From: a virus
Reading direction: 5' to 3' (one strand)
Length of the DNA: 23,364 nt
Virus record (IMG/VR): IMGVR_UViG_3300042402_002844
Location: 1 to 23,364 of that record
Shown here: piece after piece, positions 3,235 through 19,627 of the stretch
Layout: each line of letters opens with the position of its first letter
Numbering within the stretch: position 1 is the stretch's first letter
Position numbers and translations under genes: made by a program
The notes under the pieces: model-generated
What the model saw: the letters and a program-made list of their open reading frames with translations, nothing else
Database searches by the model: none
Told to the model about the DNA's origin: nothing

Positions 3235-3636
3235 ATGCCTTCTGAAAGGATAAGCAAAGCATTTAAAGATATTAGTTTATCCTTTCAGGTTAATCCCCTG
3301 AATTATGATTTGATTGCGATCAAAAATGAGACTGCAATTGCACGTTCAATACGTAATCTAGTTTTGACTCAACCAGGAGAAAGATTTTTTAACCAAAATC
3401 TTGGATCCAAGGTAAATCAGTCTCTTTTTGAAAATATCGATGACATTAGTGCTTCTATACTTCGCGATGAAATCAGAAACACTATTGAAAATTATGAACC
3501 AAGAGTTGAATTAATTGATGTTGTAGTCACCCCAAATTATGATGATTACGAATTTAGCGTGAATGTTAGTTATTACATAGTTGGTGTTGATGTATTACCC
3601 CAACAGTTAACATTTGCATTACAACCAACACGATAA
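3235..3636 (+). CDS. 25: Baseplate wedge subunit gp25 (GPW/gp25 family)
   Basis: A 133-residue protein, the same size as T4 gp25 (132). It has the GPW/gp25 family hallmarks: the central AIARSIRNLVLTQPGERFFNQ segment (about residues 34-54), a helical region, and ENYEPRVELIDVVV (about residues 86-99), whose EPR triad is characteristic. In contractile tails gp25 joins the sheath initiator end of the baseplate wedge and links the wedge to the first sheath ring. The ATG lacks an obvious ribosome binding site and follows a late-promoter-like element. The stop overlaps the gp6 ATG by one base (TAATG), consistent with coupled synthesis of interacting wedge proteins. Confidence 0.92.
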   Translation: MPSERISKAFKDISLSFQVNPLNYDLIAIKNETAIARSIRNLVLTQPGERFFNQNLGSKVNQSLFENIDDISASILRDEIRNTIENYEPRVELIDVVVTPNYDDYEFSVNVSYYIVGVDVLPQQLTFALQPTR

Positions 3637-5549
3637 TGGCACTAGTTAATTTTACGAACCTAGATTTCGACCAAATTAAAACTTCGATTAGAGATTATCT
3701 AAGATCGAACTCAAATTTTACTGACTACGATTTTGAAGGTTCAAACCTTTCAGTAATTTTAGATGTTCTAGCATATAACACATATATTTCCTCATACAAT
3801 GCTAATATGGTTAGCAATGAGGTTTTTATTGATAGTGCTACTCTTAGAGAAAATGTTGTTTCAATTGCAAGAAGCATTGGATACACACCAAGATCTAGAA
3901 CGGCATCAAAAGCAAATGTTTCGTTCTTTGTAGATACTTCTGTAGCAACTTCTCCACAAAAACCCCTAACATTAACCCTAAAAAAAGGTATTGTATCCAC
4001 AACATCCGGATCTTTTAATGGAATAAGTTACGTTTATTCCATTCCAGATGATATTACTGTTCCAGTCCTTAATGGAATTGCCGATTTTAGCAATATCAAT
4101 ATCTATGAAGGAACTTATATTACAGAAACATACACGGTCAACTCATTAAATCCGAATCAAAAATTTATTTTAAATAATTCAAATGTAGACTCTTCTCTTA
4201 TTCGTGTTGAAGTTAGAGATGGATCTCTTGGACCAAGAAAAAAATACATTCAATCAAATAATATCTTAGATATAAATTCAGAATCAAGAATTTTCTTTAT
4301 TCAAGAAATTGAAGATCAGAGATATGAACTATTATTTGGTGATGGTATTTTTGGGAAAAAGTTAATCAACGAAAATATTGTTGATATCTCTTATATCATA
4401 ACAAATGGAGAATCTGCAAATGGAGTTTCTTCTTTTGTTTTTAATGGTACTATTGTGGATAATAATAATTTTGATGTTACTAGTGGAATTTCACTTATAA
4501 CAGCAAATATTGCATCAAATGGAGGTAAGGAGATAGAATCCATAGATTCTATCAAAAAATATGCAACTAGAATTTATGCTGCACAAAATAGAGCTGTAAC
4601 TTCTAGTGACTATGAAGCAATCATTCCCCAAATATATCCAGAGGCAGAGTCGGTTTCTGTATTTGGCGGAGAAGATTTAGACCCACCTCAATACGGAAAG
4701 GTTTTTATTACAATTAAACCGGAAGGTGGTTTTTTTGTATCGAATAATATTAAAGATAATATAAAAGAAAAACTCAGAAAATATTCTGTTGCCGGAATTA
4801 TTCCCGAAATATTGGACCTTAAATATCTTTCTTTGGAGATTAATAGTACAATTTATTATAACAATAATGACGCACCTTCGTCAGAATATATTACAAATAT
4901 AGTATATAATAATATTAAAAAATACATAAATTCTTCTGAATTAAATAAGTACGGAGCAAGATTTAAATATAGTAAGTTTTTGAAAATTATTGATGACAGT
5001 CACGAATCAATAACGTCAAATATTACTACAGTTCAAATGAGACGTGATTTAAGACCGGTGTTAAATAGTTCAGCAACGTATGAAATCTGTTTTGGAAACC
5101 AATTTCACATAAAAGACATCCTTGGATTTAATATTAAATCATCTGGATTTACTGTACCGGGAGTTGCGGAAACTGTTTATATGGCAGATGTTCCAAATCT
5201 AGATAAAATAACTGGTACTATTGTTATTTTTAGATTAGATTCTATTGATCGTTATAGAATAATTAATTCAAATGCAGGTACTATAAATTATCAAAAAGGT
5301 GAAATCAATTTAGATGCGATTAATATTATTTCAACATCCAAGTCTGATGGCGGCGAATCAATTATACAAATTTCCGCAATTCCAGAATCTAATGATGTAA
5401 TTGGTCTACAAGATTTGTATTTGAATTTAAGTATTAATGATGTTACATTAAATGTTTTATCGGATAAAATTGCTTCGGGAGATGATCCTTCTGGTTCGAC
5501 ATACACAAAAACAACAAGTTACAGTAATGGTTCAATTATAAGAGAATAA
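3636..5549 (+). CDS. 6: Baseplate wedge subunit gp6 (baseplate J-like)
   Basis: A 637-residue protein, close to T4 gp6 (660). The N-terminal part (MALVNFTNLDFDQIKTSI...; then DYDFEGSNLSVILDVLAYNTYISSY) matches the conserved start of gp6/gpJ wedge proteins. FGDGIFG at 234-240 followed by TNGESANG at 256-263, and NRAVTSSDYE near 318-327, are typical baseplate J-like motifs. In T4, gp6 dimers form the iris ring linking wedges around the hub. Immediate neighbours gp25 and the gp7-like gene are its physical partners in the wedge. It begins within the gp25 stop codon and ends 1 base before the gp7-like start. No ribosome binding site is seen, so coupling is likely. Confidence 0.92.
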   Translation: MALVNFTNLDFDQIKTSIRDYLRSNSNFTDYDFEGSNLSVILDVLAYNTYISSYNANMVSNEVFIDSATLRENVVSIARSIGYTPRSRTASKANVSFFVDTSVATSPQKPLTLTLKKGIVSTTSGSFNGISYVYSIPDDITVPVLNGIADFSNINIYEGTYITETYTVNSLNPNQKFILNNSNVDSSLIRVEVRDGSLGPRKKYIQSNNILDINSESRIFFIQEIEDQRYELLFGDGIFGKKLINENIVDISYIITNGESANGVSSFVFNGTIVDNNNFDVTSGISLITANIASNGGKEIESIDSIKKYATRIYAAQNRAVTSSDYEAIIPQIYPEAESVSVFGGEDLDPPQYGKVFITIKPEGGFFVSNNIKDNIKEKLRKYSVAGIIPEILDLKYLSLEINSTIYYNNNDAPSSEYITNIVYNNIKKYINSSELNKYGARFKYSKFLKIIDDSHESITSNITTVQMRRDLRPVLNSSATYEICFGNQFHIKDILGFNIKSSGFTVPGVAETVYMADVPNLDKITGTIVIFRLDSIDRYRIINSNAGTINYQKGEINLDAINIISTSKSDGGESIIQISAIPESNDVIGLQDLYLNLSINDVTLNVLSDKIASGDDPSGSTYTKTTSYSNGSIIRE

Positions 5550-5550
5550 G

Positions 5551-8500
5551 ATGACAAATACAAGAGTTAAAATCAGTTCAATTGTACAAGATCAGCTTCC
5601 AGATTTTGTGCAGGAAGAATATCCTCTCGTAAGTGAATTTTTAAAAGAATACTATAATTCATTAGAAGGAAAAAGTGGAACTTTAGATATTCTTCAGAAT
5701 ATAGATCAATATGTGAAAATTGATAATCTAGCAGAATCTTTATTCAGTAGAACTGTTACTGTTAAACCACAAGCACCACAATCATATTTTATTGTTAGTG
5801 GTGGTTATTCTATTGAGAATCTTATTGTATATAAAAATGGCGTAAAGTTAAATCGAAATGTAGATTATTTTGCTACAGATGGAACGTCAGTATTTTTAAC
5901 AACCACAGCATCAACTACTGATGTTTTGGAGTTTGCAATACAAACACCATCTTCAACTTTTTTATCTAGCAATGTTGATTTTGTAGATAGTACTATTGAT
6001 GTATCATCCACGTATGGATTCCCAGAGTCTAATGGAATAATCAAAATAGACTCTGAAATTATATTGTATAAGAATAAAACTACAACATCTTTTGTTGATT
6101 GTACTAGAGGATTTAGTGGAATCACTTCTTATAGATCAGAAAATAATCCAGATCAGTTGGTGTTTTCCACCTCAGGTATTTCTACGCATTCCAGCAATGC
6201 CAAAGTTGAAAATTTAAGTTCTTTGTTCTTAAAGGAATTTCTTACAAAAATAAAAAGACAATTAATTCCTGGATTTGAAAACAGAGAATTTACTGAAGGA
6301 CTGAATGAAAAAACCTTCATAAAGCAAGCAAGAGATTTTTATAGTTCAAAAGGAACTGATGATTCATATAAGATATTGTTTAAATCTCTTTTTGGAGAAA
6401 CGGTTGATGTAATAAAACCAAGAGATTTTCTTTTAAGACCATCAGATGCTCAATATAGAATAACAAGAGATTTAGTAGTTGAATCTATTTCAGGAGATCC
6501 AATGGATCTTGAAAATAAAACACTGTATCAGGATGCCAGTGTAGATAATTTTTTCCCTAAATCTTATGGTACTATTACAAAAATAGAAAAAATTGTCAGG
6601 CAAAATAAAACATATTATGTTTTAAGTCTAGATAGTGATTATAATAAAGATTTACTTGTAGATGGATCGGTATATGGGAGTTTCTCCATTCATCCATCAA
6701 CAAAATTAACTACCCAAAGTTCTTTATCCAGTACTTTATTAGATGTCGATTCAACAATTGGATTTCCTCCTAATGGAAAATTATTATTAAATGTAAATGG
6801 CGTAGATTATACTTTTGATTATACTTCAAAAAATCTAACACAGTTTAATTTAACATCTCCTTGTAATTTAATTATTCCATCCGGAACTGATTTAAAATTA
6901 AATGATGTTTATGCATATGCAAATACTGGAAATACTACAATAAAAGTAAGAATAACCGGCGTTCTTTCTGATATTTCTTTTCCGGATTTAAATTATTTAA
7001 TGTCTAAAGGTGATCCAATAAAAACAGTAACTTTGGGATATGAGGCATCAGGGAAGTTAGCAAATAATTGGATATTTAATATTTCTAATAAGTATAATCT
7101 GAAAGAAGTTAATGGTCCAAATTCGTCAAATACGACTTTAAATTTATTTTCATATGAACTTATTACATATGATGCCCATAATATAAATTTGGGAGATTCT
7201 ATTACTTTAATTTCGTCAAGTAATGTGAAATCAAGTTATAAAGTCGCAAAAATAAACAATGCAAATTCTATTAGTGTAGAAGGACCAAAAATTGATAATA
7301 TTAATTTAAAATATTCTATAGAAAGAAATATTAAAAAACCAAGTTTTACCAATTTTACAGCATTAAATGAATACATTCCAAACGTTCAAAATGTTTACTT
7401 GAAGGATGAAAATAACATTTATGTAGCATCAAACTGCATTCCGGATTATCTTGGAGAAAATATTGATATTAAATCAACCGATATTGTTTTTTCTGGAACT
7501 TTTAACGGAGAAACTTTAGATTTGAGTTCTGGAAATCCAAATAATTTACATGGATTATATACTGGTGATTCAGTTATATATGTAAAAAATAGTTTTGAAG
7601 TAGAGAATTCTCTGAATATTCTTTCTAAGACATACTATGTCAAGAAAATAGATGAAACAAAAATAAAACTTGCAAATAGTAGATCAGATCTCTATAATAA
7701 TAAATTTGTAAGTGTTTCTGGATCAGTTGTCAATAATACCTTTAAGAAAGTTAAATTTGAAGTATTTAATCTTTTGCCTCAATCTTATATAAAAAATATT
7801 ACAACTCCTAAACCAAAGAGTATTAATGATAATTTAGATACTCCTATTGGACCCGTTGGGTTATTGGTAAATGGAGTAGAAGCTTACAGTTATAAATCTG
7901 AAGACAAGATTTATTATGGTGGAATTCAAAATATTGAAGTTTTAGATGGCGGAGAAGATTATGATATAATTAATCCCCCTTCAATTTCAATAGAAGATAC
8001 AAATGGATATAATGCAACTGCTTTAGTTCATGTTGAAGGGTCTTTAGAAAGAATAGACGTTGTTGATGGTGGATTTGACTACTTAGATGAACCAATTATA
8101 ACAATAACAGGTGGAAATGGATTAGGCGCTTATGCAAAACCAAATTTAACAACTTTCAAACATCAAGTTTCTTTCAACTCAATAGAATCTGCGGGTCTTG
8201 TTAATTTAACCAATGACACCTTAGGTTTTTCATCTTATCATAAATTTAGAGACTATGAGAGAGTAGTATATTTAACTGAAGGTCAAACTAGTGTTGGTGG
8301 AATTACCACAAATGCTCAATATTATGTCAATGTACAAGATGCATTTAATGTTAAATTGCATAAAACATTGGATGATGCAGTCTCTGGAATTAACACAATA
8401 AATCTAACTTCATATGGAGTTGGAGTTCATTTGTTTGAATCTTTCTCTCCAAAGAGGAAGATCTCTAGTGTTAGTGTCCTGAACAGGGGTTTTGGTTACA

Positions 8501-11500
8501 AAAATAAAAAAATAGTATGTACCTCATCAGGAATCAATACTGCATATAATAGTATCGATATACCAAATCACGGATACAATACCGGAGAAGTAATAGTTTA
8601 TAATCCAACTGGAACAGTGGTTGGCGGATTATCTAGTGGAACATCATATTTTGTAACTAAAGTAAATGAGGATCAATTCAAACTATCTCAAGTAGGAATT
8701 GCTACCACTAATAGGGATTTTTATTTTAAAACAAATCAATATGTTAATTTAACTTCAATCGGTTCATCCTTACATACATTTAATTATCCAGAAATTGTTG
8801 TTTCAGTTTCTGGAAGAATAGGTGTTTCTACATTAACAAATCAAAACTTTAATGCAATTTTGCAACCAGTTTTTAGAGGATCTATTACCAATGTATTTGT
8901 AAGTAATTTTGGAGTCGGATATGGATCTTCGGAAATTATAAATTATGAAAGACAACCAAAAGTTACTTTAGGTATAGGATCTGAGGCACAACTTTCTGCT
9001 ATTGTAAATAATGGAAAAATAAAACAAGTATTGGTTCTAAATGGCGGTAGCAATTATACGTCTGCTCCAACAATCAATACCTTAGGAATAGGGACTGCAG
9101 CAATATTAACTCCAGTAATTGGTGGGGGAAAAATAGTAGATGTTAAAATTGTAAATGGAGGAGTTGGATTTAGTACTGCAGGAACTTTGTTGGAAGTTGT
9201 TTCTTCGGGAAGAAATTTTAAGTCGTATTGTAAAGTAAAATCTTGGACAATCAATAAAGTAGAAAAACACTTAATTACAAACAGTATTTCTGACGATGAT
9301 GGTATCATAGACATTTCTCCATTTACAATGATTGGGGCACAATATTGTCATTTGTATGCTCCAAGAAAATTAAGGAGAAGTGTTTTTGGTATTGATTATG
9401 TTAAAGGAAACCAAACTTTTGTACCAGACCTCACACTGTCGGGAAATAGAGAAGTAGTATCTAATGTTCATTCCCCAATTATTGGTTGGGCTTATGATGG
9501 AAATCCGATCTATGGTCCATATGGATATTCAAATCCATCTGGAGGAAATGTGAGAGAAATGATTTCTGGATATGTGTCGCAAATTTCTTCTGAAAGACCA
9601 GATCCAGTTTCACAATTAGGACAAAAAATTTATCCGGAAGGATTTTTTGTAGAGGATTATCAGTTTAATAATTCTGGAGATTTGGACGAGCACAATGGAA
9701 GATTTTGCGTAACTCCAGAATTTCCAAATGGAATTTATGCATATTTTGCAACTATTAATAATGGATCAACTGAAACCACTGGGGTATTTAAAAATTACAA
9801 GAAACCAGTTTTTCCATATTTGATTGGAAACACTTTTAAATCATCACCTAATCAGTTTAATTATACAAGAGTTACCCAAGATAGTTTTGATTTTGTTACA
9901 GAAAATTTAATTCGCAATACTACTCCATATAAGTTTACTAGCAAAAATTCAGAATATGAATTTGTATTAAATCCAACAAAAATAAAAGAATCGTCATCAA
10001 GAATAAAATCAATTTTAACTGGCGGAATAAATGATATTGGTATTACTACTGGTGGAAATGATTATAAGGTTGGAGACAATATAGTATTCAATAATTTGAA
10101 GACAAATGGATCCAATGCATATGCTCAAGTATCTTATGTAAAAGGAAAAGAGGTAAAAACAGTAAGTTTTGCTTCTACTTTTTCTCCCAATGTTGAATTT
10201 TATCCCATTGATAATGTAGGAAAATATATTGGTTTCTGCTCTACTCCACACAGTCTTATTAACAATGACATAATTTCAATCTCTGGAATAAACACTTTAT
10301 CAAAACTTTTTGATAGATTTTATCAAGTTGGTGTTAGAACAGACACACTTTCTCTTCTGAATACTGTTGGAACAACAACTGCTACCGGAATTATTACATA
10401 TTTTAATGTAAACGGTTCTTTAAATTACCCAAGTATAAGAGAAAATGATGTATATCTCATCGAAAATGAGAAGGTAAAAGTTCTTTCTGTTGACACACCA
10501 TCTTCGAGGATTAAAGTATTAAGGGCATATGATTCAACAGTTGGATCATCTCACACTGCTTCCACTGTTTTATATGAACAAACTAGAAAATTTACTTTTG
10601 ATTCTCCGGGAACCACTAATGTAGTTTTCAACCTAAACAAAGAATTTTACTTTAGTCCAGCAGAATCTCTTGCAATTGGATCCTCTTCTGGAGTTGGAAT
10701 TGGGCATACTTTAAACTTCTCAAATCCAGGATCTGGAGTTACGAGTATTTTTATCCCAACAAAAACAATATACTTACCTTCACATTCGCTAAACACCGGA
10801 GAGAAATTAATTTACTCTAGCAATGGCGATTCGCCAATATCTGTTTCTAATGATGGCATAACTTCTTTCCAATTAGTGGATAATCAGTATGTTTATGTTG
10901 CAAAAGTATCCGATGATCTGATAGGCATTTCCACAAATAAAGTTGGTTTGGGATCAACCGGATCTTTCGTTGGAATTAATAGCAATGTAGTATTTTCGAC
11001 ACTTTATTTCACTAGTGTTGGATCTGGTTTAAATCATAGTTTTAAAACAGACTATGATAATGTTTTGATTGGAGAATTTAATAGAAACACTGTCACAGTA
11101 TCAACCGCAACAACACATGGATTAAAAAATAATGACATAGTATATTTTGAATCTTTGCCCGGTATCACAACTACTGTAGTAATAAAGTATAATGATAACA
11201 ATAGACGATTAATTGTAAATCCAAAGAATTTTGTTTCTGGTGATATTGACATTGCAAATAATACAATATTAGTTGCTAATCATGGTTATTTTACCGGACA
11301 GAAGGTAATTTATAATTCTATAAGTGGAGTAGGTGGTGGGTTGACCAATGATGAAATTTATTATGTCGTTAAATTTAACAAAGATAAAATAAAATTATCT
11401 TCTACTTACTACAACGCAATCAAAGATATTCCAGAGACAATTGATTTTACCTCAACCTTTGATGGATCAATTTCTTTAGTCAATCCAATTATTTCAATAA

Positions 11501-13923
11501 TTCCAAATCAAATAGTAAACTTTGATTTGTCTGATAAATCATTATCTTTTGCTAAGGGATCTGTTTTATATCCAGCATTTGATTTTAAATTGTATACCAA
11601 TTCAAATTTAACTGAAGAATTTGTCAAAGCAGAAGATTCTTCGATGTTTGATGTAGTAAGAATTGGAAAAGTGGGAGTTGATTCCACTTCTTATGTTAGA
11701 CTTTCTACTTCAAATATTAATTTTGATTTATATTACGCACTGATTCCAATTAATTTAACTGATAATTATGCAGTCAAAAAAGAAATTATAAACGACAATG
11801 AAAATATTTTGGATAATAATAAACTTTCTTTGACAAGAAGTTTTTATACAGGAAATTACACTATTAGTGGAGTTGGACAAACAACCTTTAAATTCAACAT
11901 TTTAGGTTATCCGGAAAGTTTATCTTATACAAATGCTGATGGCGATTTTCAATATTACACTAATTCTAGAAATGTTTCCGGAACAATTCAAAGAATAGAA
12001 TTGAAATCATCTGGATCATATTACGAAACTTCTCCGGGTGTAACGACTGTTTTTTCGAAGAATGGTAAAAATGCAATTTTAGATCCAATAACAATTTCTA
12101 TTGGCAATATAAACAATGTGGAAATTGAGGATATTGGATTTGAGTATCCATCAGATATAACATTAAGACCATCAGCAAAACTTCCTCAAGTATTAAAGAT
12201 TAATCCATTATCCATATTTAAGTCTGTAGGAGTTTCTTCAGTCGGAGTAAACTACACGATATCCCCCACTTTAGTTGTAATTGATGGATATACGAATAAG
12301 ATTGTTAGTGATGTTGATTTATCATATGATATTAAAACAAAAACCGTAAGTATTGTTAGAAATACCGAAGGAATAAACAGTGTAACTCCAATAATTATTC
12401 CAACAAATAATTCTAATGGGGTTCCAATAAGTAATATCACATTTAATAGTGTAACTAAAAATGTTACAGTACAATTGGGCGTAAATTACAGTTTTGGTCA
12501 AGTATTTCCATTTAATGTTGGCGACAAAGTTTTAATTGAGAGTACTAGTGTTGGTTCCGCGACAACTTCTAAAGGATATAATTCTAAAAATTATAATTAT
12601 AAATTATTCACTTTAACTTCAGTCAATCCTCAGTACGGCGCTTCTGGTGCAACGATAGTATATAATTTGTCTGATTATTTAACTGGATCTGAGTCTCCTG
12701 GATCTTTTGATTCTGAAAATTCTGCCGGAATAGTAGTACCGGAAAAATATTTCCCAATATTCAATACGTTATTGGAAAAGGGAAGATTTATTGTTGGCGA
12801 AAAGGTGAAAAGTGATTCTTTTATGGGAACGGTATTGAATTGGAATGAATATACTGAGCAGTTAAAAATATCTACCACAAATTCATTCCAAATAAATTCT
12901 CAGATTATAGGAGAAACTTCAAAAGCAAAAGGTTCTATAGTAGAGGTTGAAGATGTGAACGCAATTTATACAGTTGGATCTTCGTCTATTGTTAGGAAGG
13001 GATGGAATAGAGAAACTGGATTTTTAAATAATCAGTTCCAAGTAACTTCGGATAATAATTATTATCAAAACTTTTCATATTCTATTAAATCAAAGGTTGA
13101 TTATGAAACTTGGAATGAATCTATAGGTAATTTAAATCATACAACAGGATTTAAAAAATTTGGAGATCTCACAATAGAGTCAATAGATTCACAGTTTGTT
13201 GGAATAGCAACATCTCAAAATGATGGAGATTTCTCTGCAGTTTCTGATTTGGTAAGAGAAATTGATTTAAACTGTGTAAATGATTTTGATCTTGCTAGAG
13301 AAAAAACGATAGAAATTGACTCAATCTATTATTCAAAAGAAATAATCTTTAACTCCGTATCTTTACAAGATGAGTTGCAGTCAATCGGAAATAAAGTTTT
13401 GATGATTGATGATATAAGTGATCAATTTTCAAATTTACCAGGAATTAATAATTATGCAAATGCAGATACGTTTAGGCTGGCAGATTTTAGATTTAAAAAA
13501 TATATAACTTTTGTTAGAGATAAAAGATTTACCGGACTAAGGCAAATTTCTCTGGTTTCAATTTTACAAGATGGATTGGAAAGTTATATATCAGAATATT
13601 CTAAAGTTGAAACTGGTGGTGACCTCGGTTCTTTTGATTTTTCAATTTTTGGATCTGAAGGAACTTTAAAGTTTTTCCCATCATCTTACTTTATTAACGA
13701 TTATGATGTTAGTGTGATGTCTTATGGAATATATAAAAATTCTTTGGGTGTTGGAAATACCTCTTTAGGAAATTTAGTCGAACTCAAATCTTCAACTGCA
13801 ATAGTTCCCTCTGGAACAACCTCACAAACGACAATTGTTAGTATTGCATCAACTCATAGAGCATCAAAAATACTTGTCCAATTTGAACCTAGTGATGAAA
13901 ATATTTCCAATTTGATGAAATAA
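5551..13923 (+). CDS. 7: Giant gp7-like baseplate/tail structural protein, first part (2790 aa)
   Basis: Located between gp6 and gp8, where T4 has gp7. The N-terminal 400 residues resemble the C-terminal part of T4 gp7: DFYSSKGTDDSYKILFK (about 262-278) against T4 DFYSTKGIEASYKFLFK, followed in both by an acidic GETVDV/NEEVEI strand. The remainder is far longer than gp7 and is built from beta-rich repeats: seven HG-h-x-TG modules (His at about 667, 897, 1007, 1567, 1745, 1856, 1911), many GGxxY turns, and a YHYH-like domain (about 1260-1430) with GWAYDGNPIYGPYGY, DEHNGRF and TPEFPNGIYAYF. It probably forms the wedge arm and peripheral baseplate or fibre-attachment structure. The ORF ends at TAA 13921 inside a protein module that continues in the -1 frame, so this stop appears to be due to a frame break. 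The start is 1 base after gp6, with no clear ribosome binding site. The gene symbol is tentative. Confidence 0.8.
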   Translation: MTNTRVKISSIVQDQLPDFVQEEYPLVSEFLKEYYNSLEGKSGTLDILQNIDQYVKIDNLAESLFSRTVTVKPQAPQSYFIVSGGYSIENLIVYKNGVKLNRNVDYFATDGTSVFLTTTASTTDVLEFAIQTPSSTFLSSNVDFVDSTIDVSSTYGFPESNGIIKIDSEIILYKNKTTTSFVDCTRGFSGITSYRSENNPDQLVFSTSGISTHSSNAKVENLSSLFLKEFLTKIKRQLIPGFENREFTEGLNEKTFIKQARDFYSSKGTDDSYKILFKSLFGETVDVIKPRDFLLRPSDAQYRITRDLVVESISGDPMDLENKTLYQDASVDNFFPKSYGTITKIEKIVRQNKTYYVLSLDSDYNKDLLVDGSVYGSFSIHPSTKLTTQSSLSSTLLDVDSTIGFPPNGKLLLNVNGVDYTFDYTSKNLTQFNLTSPCNLIIPSGTDLKLNDVYAYANTGNTTIKVRITGVLSDISFPDLNYLMSKGDPIKTVTLGYEASGKLANNWIFNISNKYNLKEVNGPNSSNTTLNLFSYELITYDAHNINLGDSITLISSSNVKSSYKVAKINNANSISVEGPKIDNINLKYSIERNIKKPSFTNFTALNEYIPNVQNVYLKDENNIYVASNCIPDYLGENIDIKSTDIVFSGTFNGETLDLSSGNPNNLHGLYTGDSVIYVKNSFEVENSLNILSKTYYVKKIDETKIKLANSRSDLYNNKFVSVSGSVVNNTFKKVKFEVFNLLPQSYIKNITTPKPKSINDNLDTPIGPVGLLVNGVEAYSYKSEDKIYYGGIQNIEVLDGGEDYDIINPPSISIEDTNGYNATALVHVEGSLERIDVVDGGFDYLDEPIITITGGNGLGAYAKPNLTTFKHQVSFNSIESAGLVNLTNDTLGFSSYHKFRDYERVVYLTEGQTSVGGITTNAQYYVNVQDAFNVKLHKTLDDAVSGINTINLTSYGVGVHLFESFSPKRKISSVSVLNRGFGYKNKKIVCTSSGINTAYNSIDIPNHGYNTGEVIVYNPTGTVVGGLSSGTSYFVTKVNEDQFKLSQVGIATTNRDFYFKTNQYVNLTSIGSSLHTFNYPEIVVSVSGRIGVSTLTNQNFNAILQPVFRGSITNVFVSNFGVGYGSSEIINYERQPKVTLGIGSEAQLSAIVNNGKIKQVLVLNGGSNYTSAPTINTLGIGTAAILTPVIGGGKIVDVKIVNGGVGFSTAGTLLEVVSSGRNFKSYCKVKSWTINKVEKHLITNSISDDDGIIDISPFTMIGAQYCHLYAPRKLRRSVFGIDYVKGNQTFVPDLTLSGNREVVSNVHSPIIGWAYDGNPIYGPYGYSNPSGGNVREMISGYVSQISSERPDPVSQLGQKIYPEGFFVEDYQFNNSGDLDEHNGRFCVTPEFPNGIYAYFATINNGSTETTGVFKNYKKPVFPYLIGNTFKSSPNQFNYTRVTQDSFDFVTENLIRNTTPYKFTSKNSEYEFVLNPTKIKESSSRIKSILTGGINDIGITTGGNDYKVGDNIVFNNLKTNGSNAYAQVSYVKGKEVKTVSFASTFSPNVEFYPIDNVGKYIGFCSTPHSLINNDIISISGINTLSKLFDRFYQVGVRTDTLSLLNTVGTTTATGIITYFNVNGSLNYPSIRENDVYLIENEKVKVLSVDTPSSRIKVLRAYDSTVGSSHTASTVLYEQTRKFTFDSPGTTNVVFNLNKEFYFSPAESLAIGSSSGVGIGHTLNFSNPGSGVTSIFIPTKTIYLPSHSLNTGEKLIYSSNGDSPISVSNDGITSFQLVDNQYVYVAKVSDDLIGISTNKVGLGSTGSFVGINSNVVFSTLYFTSVGSGLNHSFKTDYDNVLIGEFNRNTVTVSTATTHGLKNNDIVYFESLPGITTTVVIKYNDNNRRLIVNPKNFVSGDIDIANNTILVANHGYFTGQKVIYNSISGVGGGLTNDEIYYVVKFNKDKIKLSSTYYNAIKDIPETIDFTSTFDGSISLVNPIISIIPNQIVNFDLSDKSLSFAKGSVLYPAFDFKLYTNSNLTEEFVKAEDSSMFDVVRIGKVGVDSTSYVRLSTSNINFDLYYALIPINLTDNYAVKKEIINDNENILDNNKLSLTRSFYTGNYTISGVGQTTFKFNILGYPESLSYTNADGDFQYYTNSRNVSGTIQRIELKSSGSYYETSPGVTTVFSKNGKNAILDPITISIGNINNVEIEDIGFEYPSDITLRPSAKLPQVLKINPLSIFKSVGVSSVGVNYTISPTLVVIDGYTNKIVSDVDLSYDIKTKTVSIVRNTEGINSVTPIIIPTNNSNGVPISNITFNSVTKNVTVQLGVNYSFGQVFPFNVGDKVLIESTSVGSATTSKGYNSKNYNYKLFTLTSVNPQYGASGATIVYNLSDYLTGSESPGSFDSENSAGIVVPEKYFPIFNTLLEKGRFIVGEKVKSDSFMGTVLNWNEYTEQLKISTTNSFQINSQIIGETSKAKGSIVEVEDVNAIYTVGSSSIVRKGWNRETGFLNNQFQVTSDNNYYQNFSYSIKSKVDYETWNESIGNLNHTTGFKKFGDLTIESIDSQFVGIATSQNDGDFSAVSDLVREIDLNCVNDFDLAREKTIEIDSIYYSKEIIFNSVSLQDELQSIGNKVLMIDDISDQFSNLPGINNYANADTFRLADFRFKKYITFVRDKRFTGLRQISLVSILQDGLESYISEYSKVETGGDLGSFDFSIFGSEGTLKFFPSSYFINDYDVSVMSYGIYKNSLGVGNTSLGNLVELKSSTAIVPSGTTSQTTIVSIASTHRASKILVQFEPSDENISNLMK
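9328..9840 (+). other. YHYH-like domain within the giant structural gene
   Basis: Residues about 1260-1430 of the giant protein contain a recognisable block. It has AQYCHLYAPRKLRR, then HSPIIGWAYDGNPIYGPYGY, then DLDEHNGRFCVTPEFPNG followed by IYAYFATI. The DG-x-PIYGP and HNGRF...TPE-P-G-YAYF elements are those of YHYH-family proteins; the literal YHYH tetrapeptide is not present, with YCHLY at the corresponding place (inference). It sits like an inserted globular domain between repeat modules. Function unproven. Confidence 0.65.
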
Positions 13924-14495
13924 CTTTGCTTAATGATGGAACAAATGTCCATATATTAGAATATGGAAAATTATCTAATTTAAATAGAGTTAAATACATT
14001 GGAGATGGAATTGGAACTTATACTGCATACATTTCCGGTTCCAATATAAATCTCGATTTTATTCCTAATGTTGGGTTAGGTATTACATACACTGTAAATA
14101 CTCTCAGAGTTTCATTGGCAAATACTTCTGGATCAGGCATTACAACTGGATCCATAACATTTAATACTGGTGATATTAGATCAAATTATGTTGCAATATC
14201 ATCATCACCAACACCAAGTCAAACAGTTATATCAAATTATTCTCAAGATTATTCGAGTGCATACTATCTTGTGATGGTTGAAGATACTGCAAATAATTCT
14301 TATCAATCTTCAGAAATAGTTGTTATTGATGATGAAACTAATGCATATGCAGTTGAATTTGGTTCTTTAGAAACTATTTCTGGTTTGGGGACTATTGGTG
14401 CTGGCGTTGGTTCAACCGGAACAAATCTTTATTTTACGCCAAATCCAAATATTTCGGTAAATGTTAAGGTATATCAACACTCCATGAGAATCGTT
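13819..14495 (+). repeat. Duplicated protein module spanning the frame break
   Basis: Two consecutive copies of an about 95-residue module. Copy 1 (about 13819-14118) runs from TSQTTIVSIASTHRASK through EYGKL and GIGTYTAYISG to TVNTLRVSL. Copy 2 (about 14211-14495) runs from TPSQTVISNYSQDYSSA through EFGSL and GAGVGSTGTNLYFTP to VYQHSMRIV. The copies align through the central part only if copy 1 is read in the 5551 frame before about 13899 and in the -1 frame afterwards. Confidence 0.75.
13899..13923 (+). other. Frame break in the giant gene (-1 shift window)
   Basis: The upstream frame stops at TAA 13921-13923. The -1 frame has its last stop (TGA) at 13896-13898 and is open from 13899. Any shift must occur here. 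Read in the -1 frame the sequence is KYFQFDEITLL, which continues the protein module; the zero frame reads NISNLMK-stop. One extra A in the run at 13898-13901 would restore a single ORF. No canonical X-XXY-YYZ slippery heptamer is visible. Confidence 0.75.
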
Positions 14496-17400
14496 GATTC
14501 TGGAAATTCTTTAGAATTTTATGGATTTACAAATGCGAGTTTGGATTCATCATATTCCGAATATCAAGGTACATTAAACAAAGTTAAAAAGTCTTTTGAT
14601 CTCAAAAACAAACAAAATCCAATATTCCAAAGAGTTTTTGATGCTTCAAATAACTTAATTGTAAATGTTGCAGATAATTTAGTCAAAATTCCTAACCATT
14701 TTTATGTAACAGGGGAAGAACTAATTTATAACTCCGGCAATGGAAGTCCTATAGGAATTGCAACAACAACAATTTCTGGAATAGGAGTAACAGATAAGTT
14801 ACCATCCTCAGTTTATGCTGTCAAACTAAATGATTTAAACATTAGATTTGCATCTTCAGTGGAAGATGCACTAAAATCTATTCCACAAACCTTAACTATT
14901 ACTTCTGTTGGTATAGGAACTACTCATTTTCTTACCGCCAAAAAACAAAATTCTAAATGTTTAATTGCAATTGATAATCATATACAATCACCAATTGTAT
15001 CAACTTTAACATCAGTATCACTGGCAAAAACTTCCAATTTCAATGAAATCAATCTCACTTTATCGGGTATAAGTTCAATTTATGGCGGAGATTTATTAAA
15101 AATTAATAATGAAATAGTAAAAGTTAATGTTGTTGGTTTTGGAAGTACAAATGTATTTTTAGTTGATCGTGGTTGGATGGGAACAACGCCAGAAAATCAT
15201 TCAATAGGGTCTACAGTAACAAAAGTAACTGGCAACTATAATATTATAGACAATACAATACACTTTGTTGAAGCTCCTTATGGAAATTCCCCAATAGGAA
15301 CAATGACAAATAGACCCGACGATAGAGATTATACGGGAATAACAACACATTCTACTTTCAGCGGAAGAGTTTTCTTGAGATCGGGAGTAGAAAATGAATC
15401 ATATGAACCTTACAGTAGAAACTACATTTTTGATGGGTTATCTGAGAGATTTACTGGAATTAATACCGAATTTATTCTAAAATCAAATAAATCTGATGTT
15501 ATTGGAGTATCAACAGGATCGATAATACTATTAATTAACAATATATTCCAAGAACCCCAAAGACTTGGCACTATTACCATTCCGGGGAATTATAAAATGT
15601 CAGAAAATTCTGGCATTACAACTTTATCATTTATTGGTAATATATCATCTACTTCGTATGATATCAACACGTCAAGTATTCCTAGAGGAGGGGTAATTGT
15701 TTCTGTTGCATCCACTCAAGGATTTGGATATCAACCGCTAATCTCTGCGGGAGGAACGTCAATAGTCTCTGTTGCAGGGACTATTTCATTAATTAGTATA
15801 GGATCGACGGGATCTGGATATAGAGGAGCATCAAAATATGAAATTATTACTCAAACTTCCGTAGCAATTGCAGCAGGATCTACTATTATACCGATTGATA
15901 ACCAAAATGGAGTTTTTGCTAAGTTACAACATTCAAGTTTAAATAAACTTGGAATAGGTTCTGCTTTTCAAGATGTTACAATCGTAGGTTCAGGAAGTAC
16001 ATATGTTCTTATTGGATCTGGAAGTACATCTTCCCAAGCAATAGAAGCAGGAACTTCTGTTTTGATAACCTTAGATTCGCCAACAACTGGAATTGTAAAC
16101 GTTGGAGTCAAAACGTCTAGTGTTTCTGGAACATTGAATTATCAGTTCGTTGGGTTTACCACTGTTTCTTCTGGACGTATTTCTAAAGATGTAATTATAA
16201 CCAATCCCGGATCTGGATATACATCTTCCAATCCACCAATAGTAATAATTGATAGTCCAGAAAATTATTACAACATTCCTTTAGTTTATTCTTCCGGAAC
16301 GTCAGGAATAGGAACTGGAGCAACTGTTAACATTGTAGTTGGACAAGGATCTAGTGTAATTGATTTTGAAATAAAAAATACTGGATTTGCATATAAAACA
16401 TCGGATGTTCTAACAGTTCAAACTGGAGGATTAATTGGAATTCCAACAGATTCTTCAAAACCTTTTAGAAAATTTGAACTAACAATTGACGAAGTATTCT
16501 CTGACTTGTTCTCATCCTGGTCTGTTGGAGATTTCCAAGTTATTGATAAAATAGAAAATTTATTCAACGGAAAAAGAAGAACTTTCCCAATAAAAATTAA
16601 TGGAGTGCAAACAACCATTAGATCAAGAGCAGGATCAAATATTGATATTCAATCTGTTCTTTTGATATTTGTTAATGATATTTTGCAAGTTCCGGGTGAT
16701 GGATATTTATTTAATGGGGGAAGTACTATTACATTCCCCGAGGCCCCCAAAGAGGGCGATACTTGCAAAATATTATTTTATAAAGGAACCGAACAAGTTG
16801 ATGTTGTTTTTGTTGATATTTTGGAATCTTTAAAAATTGGAGACGATATAAGACTGAACGATGATAGATTCTTCTTAAAAGAAGAAGAAAGACTTGTCAC
16901 GCAAGTTATTTCATCAGATTCTATTGAAACTAACCCATATTCAGGTGTTGGTTTAACTCTCGATGAAACTTTATCAAGACCTCTAATTTGGTGTAGACAA
17001 ACTGAAGATAAAATTATCAGCGGACAAGAAGTTGGTAAGAGTAGAGAATTATACGAACCATTTATACATCCAACAACAAATATTATTAGAACTGTTGGAA
17101 TAGCATCTACTGAGATATTTGTACAAAGTGTTAAAGTATTTTTTGATGACTTGAGAGAAAATTCAACTATTCCATTTAAAACAAAAATAACTATAACATC
17201 ACAAGACAATCTAGTTGGGGCATCAGCTACTGCCATTGTGTCCGCGGCAGGAACAATATCATCACTTTCTCTTAATAATGGCGGATTAGGATTTACAACT
17301 GCGCCGTCAGTAGTAATTGCAAAAACAGTAGGTGTTGTAACTACAGCAACAGCAACAGCATCAATTACTTCTGGCATTGTAACTTCCTTTACTATTACTA

Positions 17401-18038
17401 ACCCCGGATCTGGTTACACTACTAATAATCCACCGCAAGTTCTCATCGAATATCCATCATTAAAACAGGAAAAAATTGAAGAGGTTACCTATGAAGGTGA
17501 TTTTGGAACAATAGTTGGAATTTCTACAACTTCAGTTGGTATTGCATCCACTGCAATAGTTTTTGATTTGTTTATTCCTACTGATTCTTATCTAAGAAAC
17601 CCAAACATTAATGTTGGAATTGCAACAACGGGCATAAGTGGAATAAAAACTGATTATTACTTTACAGTATTTAATTCAAACATTGGTTTTGGTATTACAT
17701 CTTTAGATTCATCTTTATCTGTTGTTGGGGTAGGAACAACTTGCTTGGATAATATCTATAAAGTTGCTTCAGTTTCTATAGCACAAACAAGTGTTCCTGG
17801 AATTGGAGTAACAAATGTTTCTAGAGTTGTTGTCAGTGTTCTGAGTTATAATGGATTATCTGGAACTGGATATAGTGGATTTTATGGAGAATTTAGTTGG
17901 GGTAAAATAAACACTCCAGTGAGGAAGAAACCACTCAATTTTGTTTCATATAATAATGGAATTTCTGGTATTTTAACTTCTCCTATGATTCAAAGACTCA
18001 ATCCACTGAGATACGTTGGGTATTCCACAAGTGTTTAA
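13926..18038 (+). CDS. Giant baseplate/tail structural protein, second part (up to 1370 aa)
   Basis: The frame is open from 13899. The first start-like codon is a TTG at 13926, without a ribosome binding site, so independent initiation is unlikely and this is best read as the C-terminal third of the gp7-like giant. It contains an eighth HG-type module (NHFYVTGEELIY, about residue 258 from the TTG), a ...LKINNEIVKVN...VDRGWMGTT module resembling one near residue 150-195 of the first part, two NDxxQxP-type beta modules (NNIFQEPQ and VNDILQVPGDGY), and five GGxGY turns such as NPGSGYTSSNPP and NPGSGYTTNNPP. The C-terminus (GFYGEFSWGKI ... MIQRLNPLRYVGYSTSV) looks like a natural end. With the first part joined, the polypeptide would be about 4162 residues. 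The next gene has its own late promoter. Confidence 0.75.
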   Translation: MLNDGTNVHILEYGKLSNLNRVKYIGDGIGTYTAYISGSNINLDFIPNVGLGITYTVNTLRVSLANTSGSGITTGSITFNTGDIRSNYVAISSSPTPSQTVISNYSQDYSSAYYLVMVEDTANNSYQSSEIVVIDDETNAYAVEFGSLETISGLGTIGAGVGSTGTNLYFTPNPNISVNVKVYQHSMRIVDSGNSLEFYGFTNASLDSSYSEYQGTLNKVKKSFDLKNKQNPIFQRVFDASNNLIVNVADNLVKIPNHFYVTGEELIYNSGNGSPIGIATTTISGIGVTDKLPSSVYAVKLNDLNIRFASSVEDALKSIPQTLTITSVGIGTTHFLTAKKQNSKCLIAIDNHIQSPIVSTLTSVSLAKTSNFNEINLTLSGISSIYGGDLLKINNEIVKVNVVGFGSTNVFLVDRGWMGTTPENHSIGSTVTKVTGNYNIIDNTIHFVEAPYGNSPIGTMTNRPDDRDYTGITTHSTFSGRVFLRSGVENESYEPYSRNYIFDGLSERFTGINTEFILKSNKSDVIGVSTGSIILLINNIFQEPQRLGTITIPGNYKMSENSGITTLSFIGNISSTSYDINTSSIPRGGVIVSVASTQGFGYQPLISAGGTSIVSVAGTISLISIGSTGSGYRGASKYEIITQTSVAIAAGSTIIPIDNQNGVFAKLQHSSLNKLGIGSAFQDVTIVGSGSTYVLIGSGSTSSQAIEAGTSVLITLDSPTTGIVNVGVKTSSVSGTLNYQFVGFTTVSSGRISKDVIITNPGSGYTSSNPPIVIIDSPENYYNIPLVYSSGTSGIGTGATVNIVVGQGSSVIDFEIKNTGFAYKTSDVLTVQTGGLIGIPTDSSKPFRKFELTIDEVFSDLFSSWSVGDFQVIDKIENLFNGKRRTFPIKINGVQTTIRSRAGSNIDIQSVLLIFVNDILQVPGDGYLFNGGSTITFPEAPKEGDTCKILFYKGTEQVDVVFVDILESLKIGDDIRLNDDRFFLKEEERLVTQVISSDSIETNPYSGVGLTLDETLSRPLIWCRQTEDKIISGQEVGKSRELYEPFIHPTTNIIRTVGIASTEIFVQSVKVFFDDLRENSTIPFKTKITITSQDNLVGASATAIVSAAGTISSLSLNNGGLGFTTAPSVVIAKTVGVVTTATATASITSGIVTSFTITNPGSGYTTNNPPQVLIEYPSLKQEKIEEVTYEGDFGTIVGISTTSVGIASTAIVFDLFIPTDSYLRNPNINVGIATTGISGIKTDYYFTVFNSNIGFGITSLDSSLSVVGVGTTCLDNIYKVASVSIAQTSVPGIGVTNVSRVVVSVLSYNGLSGTGYSGFYGEFSWGKINTPVRKKPLNFVSYNNGISGILTSPMIQRLNPLRYVGYSTSV

Positions 18039-18070: not shown

Positions 18071-19627
18071 ATGTCTGCGATTATAACTGATCAACTTAGA
18101 ATATTAAACGCTAAGAATTTTGTTTCTTCTGCTACTTCGTCCAATAATGGATACTATGCGTTTGTTGGTTTAACAAACGCGACAGACTATGATGCAAATT
18201 GGGATTCTGTACCCCCTGCACCTAAAGACAACTTTAATGAAGAAAACGATTATTGGGACACAATGATCGCTTTGAAAAAAATTTCTAGCGGTGATGTAAG
18301 ACAAGTGGTTAGAAAAATTACTTGGACTTCAGGAACAGTCTATGATATGTATAGGCACGATATAAGTAGAACTAATCTTTCTATTCCTTCAAATTCTACT
18401 AATTTATATTCTGCAAATTATTATGTTGTAAATAGTGATTATAGGGTCTATATTTGTTTATATAATGGCATAGAACCAGAAAACCCAACAGGAAAACCAT
18501 CTCTAGATGAACCTACTTTTACTGACTTAGAACCAAGAGCAGCTGGAACTAGTGAAGATGGATACATTTGGAAATACTTATATACAATAAAACCAAGTGA
18601 ACTTGTAAAGTTTGATTCGACTAATTTTATTCCAGTTCCAGCGGATTGGGAAACCAATTCAGATTATGCTGCGGTTAGAAATAATGCTAACTCAAGTGGA
18701 CAACTAAAAATAGCGACTATAAGGAATAGAGGAGTTGGTATTGGAACAGCAAACAGAACATACACAAGAGTTCCAATTTATGGAGATGGAGTAGGGGCAG
18801 AATGTACAATTGTAGTCAATAGTGACTCCAAAGTTGGTTCTATAATTATTACTAATGGCGGATCTGGATACACGTATGGAAGTATAGATTTTGTGTCTGG
18901 AAATGTTCCAACAGGAACAACTCCTCCAGTTTTGGATGTTATCATACCCCCGCAAAAAGGACATGGTTATGATATATACAGAGAGTTAGGAGCTTATAGG
19001 GTATTAATTTACTCAAAAATTGAAAATGATACTGAAGACCCAGACTTTATAGTTGGCAATCAAATTGCAAGAGTCGGTATCGTAGAAAATCCATTATCTT
19101 ATGATTCTGATGCTATTTTAAATAAAAGTAAAGCAAGTGCCCTATTTGCATTAAAACTTGTTGGCACTGGATATAGTACTACAACTTTTATAGCAGATAG
19201 TTTAATTACACAAACAGTTGGTCTTGGTTCCACTGCTATAGGTAGAGTGATTTCATATGATAAAAATACTGGAGTTTTAAAATATTGGCAGGATAGAACT
19301 TTAGTTGGATTTAATAGTGATGGGACTACAAATATAACCCCTTTGTATGGATTCAAATTACATCAGTTTACTTCAACTCCATTGAATGGTGGATCATTAA
19401 CTATTAATGCGTTTGGAGTAAGTGGTTTAGGAATAGATACATCTTTTACTGGAGTGTCAACCACAATAAATAATAGAAAATATTATTTGGGTCAATCTTT
19501 TGTTAACGGAGTATCCACTCCCGAAGTGGAAAAATACACTGGAAATATAATTTATGTTGACAATAGACCTTCAATAACTAGGTCTTCAAATCAAAAAGAA
19601 AATATCAAGGTCATTTTGCAATTCTAA
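18071..19627 (+). CDS. 8: Baseplate wedge subunit gp8
   Basis: A 518-residue homologue of T4 gp8 (334 residues). Shared landmarks include YWDTMIALKKI against T4 MWTHMMGTVKV, DGYIWKYLYTIKP (163-175) against DGYVWEYLFEIPP, VGIVENPL against ISIITNPL, and the C-terminus GNIIYVDNRPSI...ENIKVILQF (about 491-518) against EMIYMENRPPI...EEINILFTF. In T4, gp8 is a dimer in the wedge bound to gp7 and gp10. The extra length lies in the middle and includes a GGSGYT turn (263-268) and a SKASALF...GLGSTAIGRVISY segment resembling repeats in the flanking structural proteins. The start follows the TATAAATA promoter; no ribosome binding site is seen. The DUF4815 gene starts 6 bases after its stop. Confidence 0.88.
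   Translation: MSAIITDQLRILNAKNFVSSATSSNNGYYAFVGLTNATDYDANWDSVPPAPKDNFNEENDYWDTMIALKKISSGDVRQVVRKITWTSGTVYDMYRHDISRTNLSIPSNSTNLYSANYYVVNSDYRVYICLYNGIEPENPTGKPSLDEPTFTDLEPRAAGTSEDGYIWKYLYTIKPSELVKFDSTNFIPVPADWETNSDYAAVRNNANSSGQLKIATIRNRGVGIGTANRTYTRVPIYGDGVGAECTIVVNSDSKVGSIIITNGGSGYTYGSIDFVSGNVPTGTTPPVLDVIIPPQKGHGYDIYRELGAYRVLIYSKIENDTEDPDFIVGNQIARVGIVENPLSYDSDAILNKSKASALFALKLVGTGYSTTTFIADSLITQTVGLGSTAIGRVISYDKNTGVLKYWQDRTLVGFNSDGTTNITPLYGFKLHQFTSTPLNGGSLTINAFGVSGLGIDTSFTGVSTTINNRKYYLGQSFVNGVSTPEVEKYTGNIIYVDNRPSITRSSNQKENIKVILQF

Follow-up and report, generated by a model that had tools for sequence, protein, structure and literature searches.

The giant gp7 baseplate wedge gene of a T4-like cyanophage record is interrupted by a private one-base deletion, seen in none of the other records examined, and the interruption is probably a sequencing or assembly error rather than a natural mutation, because near-identical copies of the gene in other records are whole. 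The window, by which we mean the whole stretch of DNA analysed, is a viral record 23,364 bases long. It contains two long open reading frames (ORFs), 5551-13923 (2790 residues, from ATG) and 13926-18038 (1370 residues, from TTG), the second in the -1 frame relative to the first. The first-pass annotation had reported two ORFs of these lengths in this phase, and both were confirmed; the full-length form of 4162 residues that it had proposed agrees, by arithmetic, with 5551-18038 plus one base.

Judged from its sequence, the region 5551-18038 is one giant T4-like cyanophage gp7 gene. Both ORFs, each with an E value of 0, matched one and the same PHROG family, phrog_2885 (4179 positions), which carries the name baseplate wedge subunit. 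The strongest match of the first ORF runs over positions 72-2688 of the family, and that of the second over positions 3542-4176. The gene order gp25-gp6-gp7-gp8 is found in the window as it is annotated in Synechococcus phage B23. In addition, a tblastn search of the phage collection with the 440 residues preceding the break matched 367 records, which by the first word of their names comprise 308 Synechococcus, 33 "Cyanophage", 22 Prochlorococcus and four "Marine" records. A single annotated baseplate wedge gene of 12.1-12.9 kb is present in the isolates Bellamy, S-SM2, SynMITS9220M01, P-TIM68, S-B05 and S-SCSM1, and the gp7 region of the window (12.5 kb) is of the same size. The genes of Bellamy (gene 111) and S-SM2 (gp7) belong to phrog_2885, share the gene order and measure 12.2-12.5 kb, and their proteins match on both sides of the junction; the window differs from them by the private one-base deletion and by ordinary divergence, with about 37-43% protein identity near the junction. 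A single uninterrupted frame, usual in phrog_2885 gp7 except in the B23 group, is not found in the window. The family name and the gene order suggest that the gene gives an ordinary, single-chain baseplate wedge protein. In Pfam searches, the first ORF gave a YHYH domain (PF14240, E 1.3e-23; window 9460-9759, residues 1304-1403) and two matches below the cut-off, one of them Baseplate_wedge, and no domain was found in the second ORF. An excerpt of one published paper counts gp7 among the larger structural proteins and calls it very divergent in non-cyanophage T4-like genomes (PMC3037559).

Table 1. Features of the window and of related gp7 loci (positions are those of the sequence named in the second column).
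Feature	Sequence	Position	Strand	Remarks
gp25-like baseplate wedge subunit	Window	3235-3636	+	phrog_261; gp number by B23 gene order
gp6-like baseplate wedge subunit	Window	3636-5549	+	phrog_219; gp number by B23 gene order
gp7 (baseplate wedge initiator), 5' part, to premature stop	Window	5551-13923	+	2790 aa; phrog_2885 match
gp7, 3' part, -1 frame	Window	13899-18038	+	Listed ORF from TTG 13926; phrog_2885 match
Module copy 1, beta-rich, break inside	Window	13801-14186	+	Limits as cut for alignment
Private one-base deletion (against L002 and L003/L082)	Window	13893-13899	+	Just 5' of A run
Out-of-frame TAA reached after deletion	Window	13921-13923	+	Read from sequence
Module copy 2	Window	14187-14600	+	Limits as cut for alignment; repeat proper shorter
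gp8-like baseplate wedge subunit	Window	18071-19627	+	phrog_438; gp number by B23 gene order
gp7 break	L036	2206		Frame change
gp7 break	L118	5593		Frame change
gp7 breaks	L146	2447, 5228		Frame changes
gp7 break	L093	1541		Frame change
gp7 break	L119	8730		Frame change
gp7 in-frame stop	L064	3450		
gp7 in-frame stop	L075	1405		
B23-type ATGA split	L163 (phage B23)	10540-10640		
B23-type ATGA split	L172	near 3885		
B23-type ATGA split	L173	near 2398		

The second frame opens at 13899 with KYFQFDE and reaches its first ATG at 14274; counting the stop, it shares the 25 nt of 13899-13923 with the first frame. Upstream of the TTG at 13926, no purine-rich ribosome binding site was visible by eye, which bears out the earlier remark that the second ORF has no supported start. 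Lacking one base here, the record runs into the TAA at 13921, and one gp7 gene comes to look like two.

The closest relatives place the missing base. Locus L002, on an IMG/VR contig, is 99.924% identical to the window over 6,595 columns with one gap, and the loci L003 and L082, which lie on one contig, are 99.932% and 99.934% identical over 13,296 and 13,557 columns with a single gap each; in all of them the gap is at the break. Both L002 and L003 carry one extra base at this site and are read through in one frame. The run of A at 13898-13901 has the same length in the window, L002 and L003, and the missing base lies directly 5' of it. Loss of a base inside the A run, as the first-pass annotation had suggested, was therefore rejected. 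Its more general proposal, a one-base loss within one giant baseplate gene, is upheld by these two intact 99.9% identical contigs and by the open frame in all 152 covering loci described below, with the place shifted by a few bases; likewise, the frame change that it had put between 13899 and 13920 does occur near there, but the break lies at 13893-13899. When the overlap was built with two further pieces of the closest relative's contig, it extended over window 2044-23364 (21.3 kb) and contained 16 substitutions and only one indel, the deletion at the break. By their contig names, L002 and L003 come from two different metagenomes, either of which could be the window's own sample. The exact string of the window was not found in any other viral contig, in a scan that may omit the window's own record. 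At window 17956 there is a private substitution, L002 and L003 sharing the same other base.

Comparison of the junction with related cyanophages, which had been proposed as a check, was extended to 163 loci, with the window's own record excluded; two of the underlying searches kept the best 80 of 85 and the best 80 of 121 relatives. The junction is covered by 152 of the loci (the other 11 lack it), and in all 152 a single frame passes through it with no stop codon in the 300 nt flanking it on either side, or as far as the locus reaches where that is less. These loci are distinct by contig name only, and many are closely related to each other; L105 and L165, probably one genome, are both counted among the 163. 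The loci of twice-fetched contigs (L082, L085, L086, L089 and L090) were removed before this count and before the count of 154 contigs given below. Translations across the junction were made for 148 loci, i.e. the window (L001), five repeats and 142 distinct contigs. All 142 contigs keep the same frame on both sides, and 141 of them are free of stops in the stretch translated; in L075, an in-frame stop lies some 440 nt upstream from the junction.

The window's break lies inside a module that the first-pass annotation had described as duplicated downstream. The duplication was found again on the intact L003, where the copies share 28% of their residues across 106 aligned columns (E 1e-11, as a single comparison). 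The module stretch also aligns in a chosen set of 32 sequences, in which the 31 relatives show 31-78% identity to L003, the remaining member. The duplication is real but ordinary, a property of the family that needs no link with the break. An AlphaFold model of the module consists almost entirely of beta strands (mean pLDDT 84, pTM 0.81). In a fold search of the PDB with this model, the best match was T4 gp9 (E 1.1e-4, TM-score 0.33, rmsd 11.7), followed by a Klebsiella phage baseplate chain (E 7.4e-4, TM-score 0.32). These matches are too weak to name the fold; the one to T4 gp9 is a weak lead.

A real private frameshift mutation in the sampled phage, which would give a truncated gp7 and perhaps a defective particle or a minor strain, seems unlikely, though it is the alternative that survives best. 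The deletion is after all present in the deposited sequence, and the 16 substitutions against the closest relative point to a record that is a slightly different strain or consensus. As the private substitution at 17956 illustrates, a difference found only in the window is not necessarily an error. Moreover, the break site has a run of only four A and no long homopolymer, which counts against an error. However, gp7 is open here in every one of the covering loci, and one would not expect the consensus of a sample to show a truncated baseplate gene. An error in sequencing or assembly is therefore the reading that we prefer, and the break itself has hardly any biological importance. A literature search over titles and abstract openings returned no paper on this break or on the B23 split discussed below, which is no proof of absence in print.

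Breaks of this general kind occur elsewhere in the gene in other records. Seven of 154 distinct viral contigs, with 1,452,931 bases of gp7 spanned, carry at least eight such breaks (Table 1), a lower bound because one point was tested per matched piece and the loci often hold partial gp7. Near-identical sequences were at hand for the comparison of L036, L118, L146 and L093, and not for L064, L075 and L119. Each of the breaks of L036 and L118 shows up as a single-base gap when the contig is aligned to a relative (99.95% and 99.90% identity across 2 kb). The two breaks of L146 fall at gaps in its alignments to L148, which contain 22 and 17 gap columns in total at 98.9% and 99.0% identity. In L093, two separate stretches are 100% identical to L092 and adjoin near the break, the pattern that a rearrangement or a misjoin would give. 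With seven of 154 contigs broken, sporadic breaks are ordinary in this collection. Giant phage genes gather them in public contigs, and they can mimic recoding when no near-identical record is set beside them.

Programmed -1 recoding at the site, the other option of the first-pass annotation, would yield forms of 2790 and 4162 residues, and a -1 shift within the 25-nt overlap would indeed produce the full-length protein. Programmed -1 frameshifting is familiar from phage tail genes, for example lambda G/GT, and depends on a slippery site and on a frame break that is conserved among relatives. Frameshifting of the lambda type would likewise join two overlapping frames; however, in the window no slippery site was seen, and a conserved break was tested for and not found. 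The canonical -1 slippery heptamer has the form X XXY YYZ, and by eye none is present in the upstream frame at the codons GAT GAA AAT ATT. Folding of the downstream RNA (100 nt from 13893, as a pseudoknot-free structure) gave -14.6 kcal/mol, a stability only slightly above that of shuffled sequences (z -1.40; 17 of 200 shuffles did as well). The frame break is present in none of the 152 junction-covering loci among the 163 examined, including the two 99.9% identical ones; since the break is missing in all site-covering relatives, there is nothing conserved to recode. Recoding is very improbable and was rejected, since the near-identical copies are intact, no canonical slippery site is present and the fold is weak. 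It is also hard to believe that the sampled virus population truly carries and maintains the deletion, with low-level ribosomal slippage at the A run still giving some full-length gp7 and hence two forms.

The idea that gp7 is truly divided at 13923/13926 into two genes with starts of their own was rejected as next to negligible in probability: fission of gp7 is possible, as an apparently genuine split in B23 and two relatives indicates, but that split lies about 0.6 kb further on, and the window has just a TTG at this place, with no ribosome binding site visible, while all 152 covering loci are unsplit at the site. The first-pass annotation had named, as the finding that would count against it, homologues whose frame stops at the position corresponding to 13923 and is followed by a new gene; this was seen in 0 of 152.

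The split in the B23 group deserves description in its own right. Synechococcus phage B23 has two annotated gp7 genes, b23_0257 and b23_0258, that overlap by 4 nt in the sequence ATGA and, like the two ORFs of the window, lie in frames -1 apart. By eye, the position of this split is equivalent to about window 14514, at the end of the module stretch and past the repeat of copy 2. The same stop-start overlap is common to all three members found, namely B23, the environmental contig L172 (98% protein identity over the query) and L173 (51%), these two being the only relatives found. An ATG within a stop-start overlap that relatives share is absent at the break of the window. Because the B23-type split is shared across such distances with a conserved ATG, it looks genuine, apparently a conserved gene fission, and may merit separate study; the two B23-group genes are perhaps translationally coupled.
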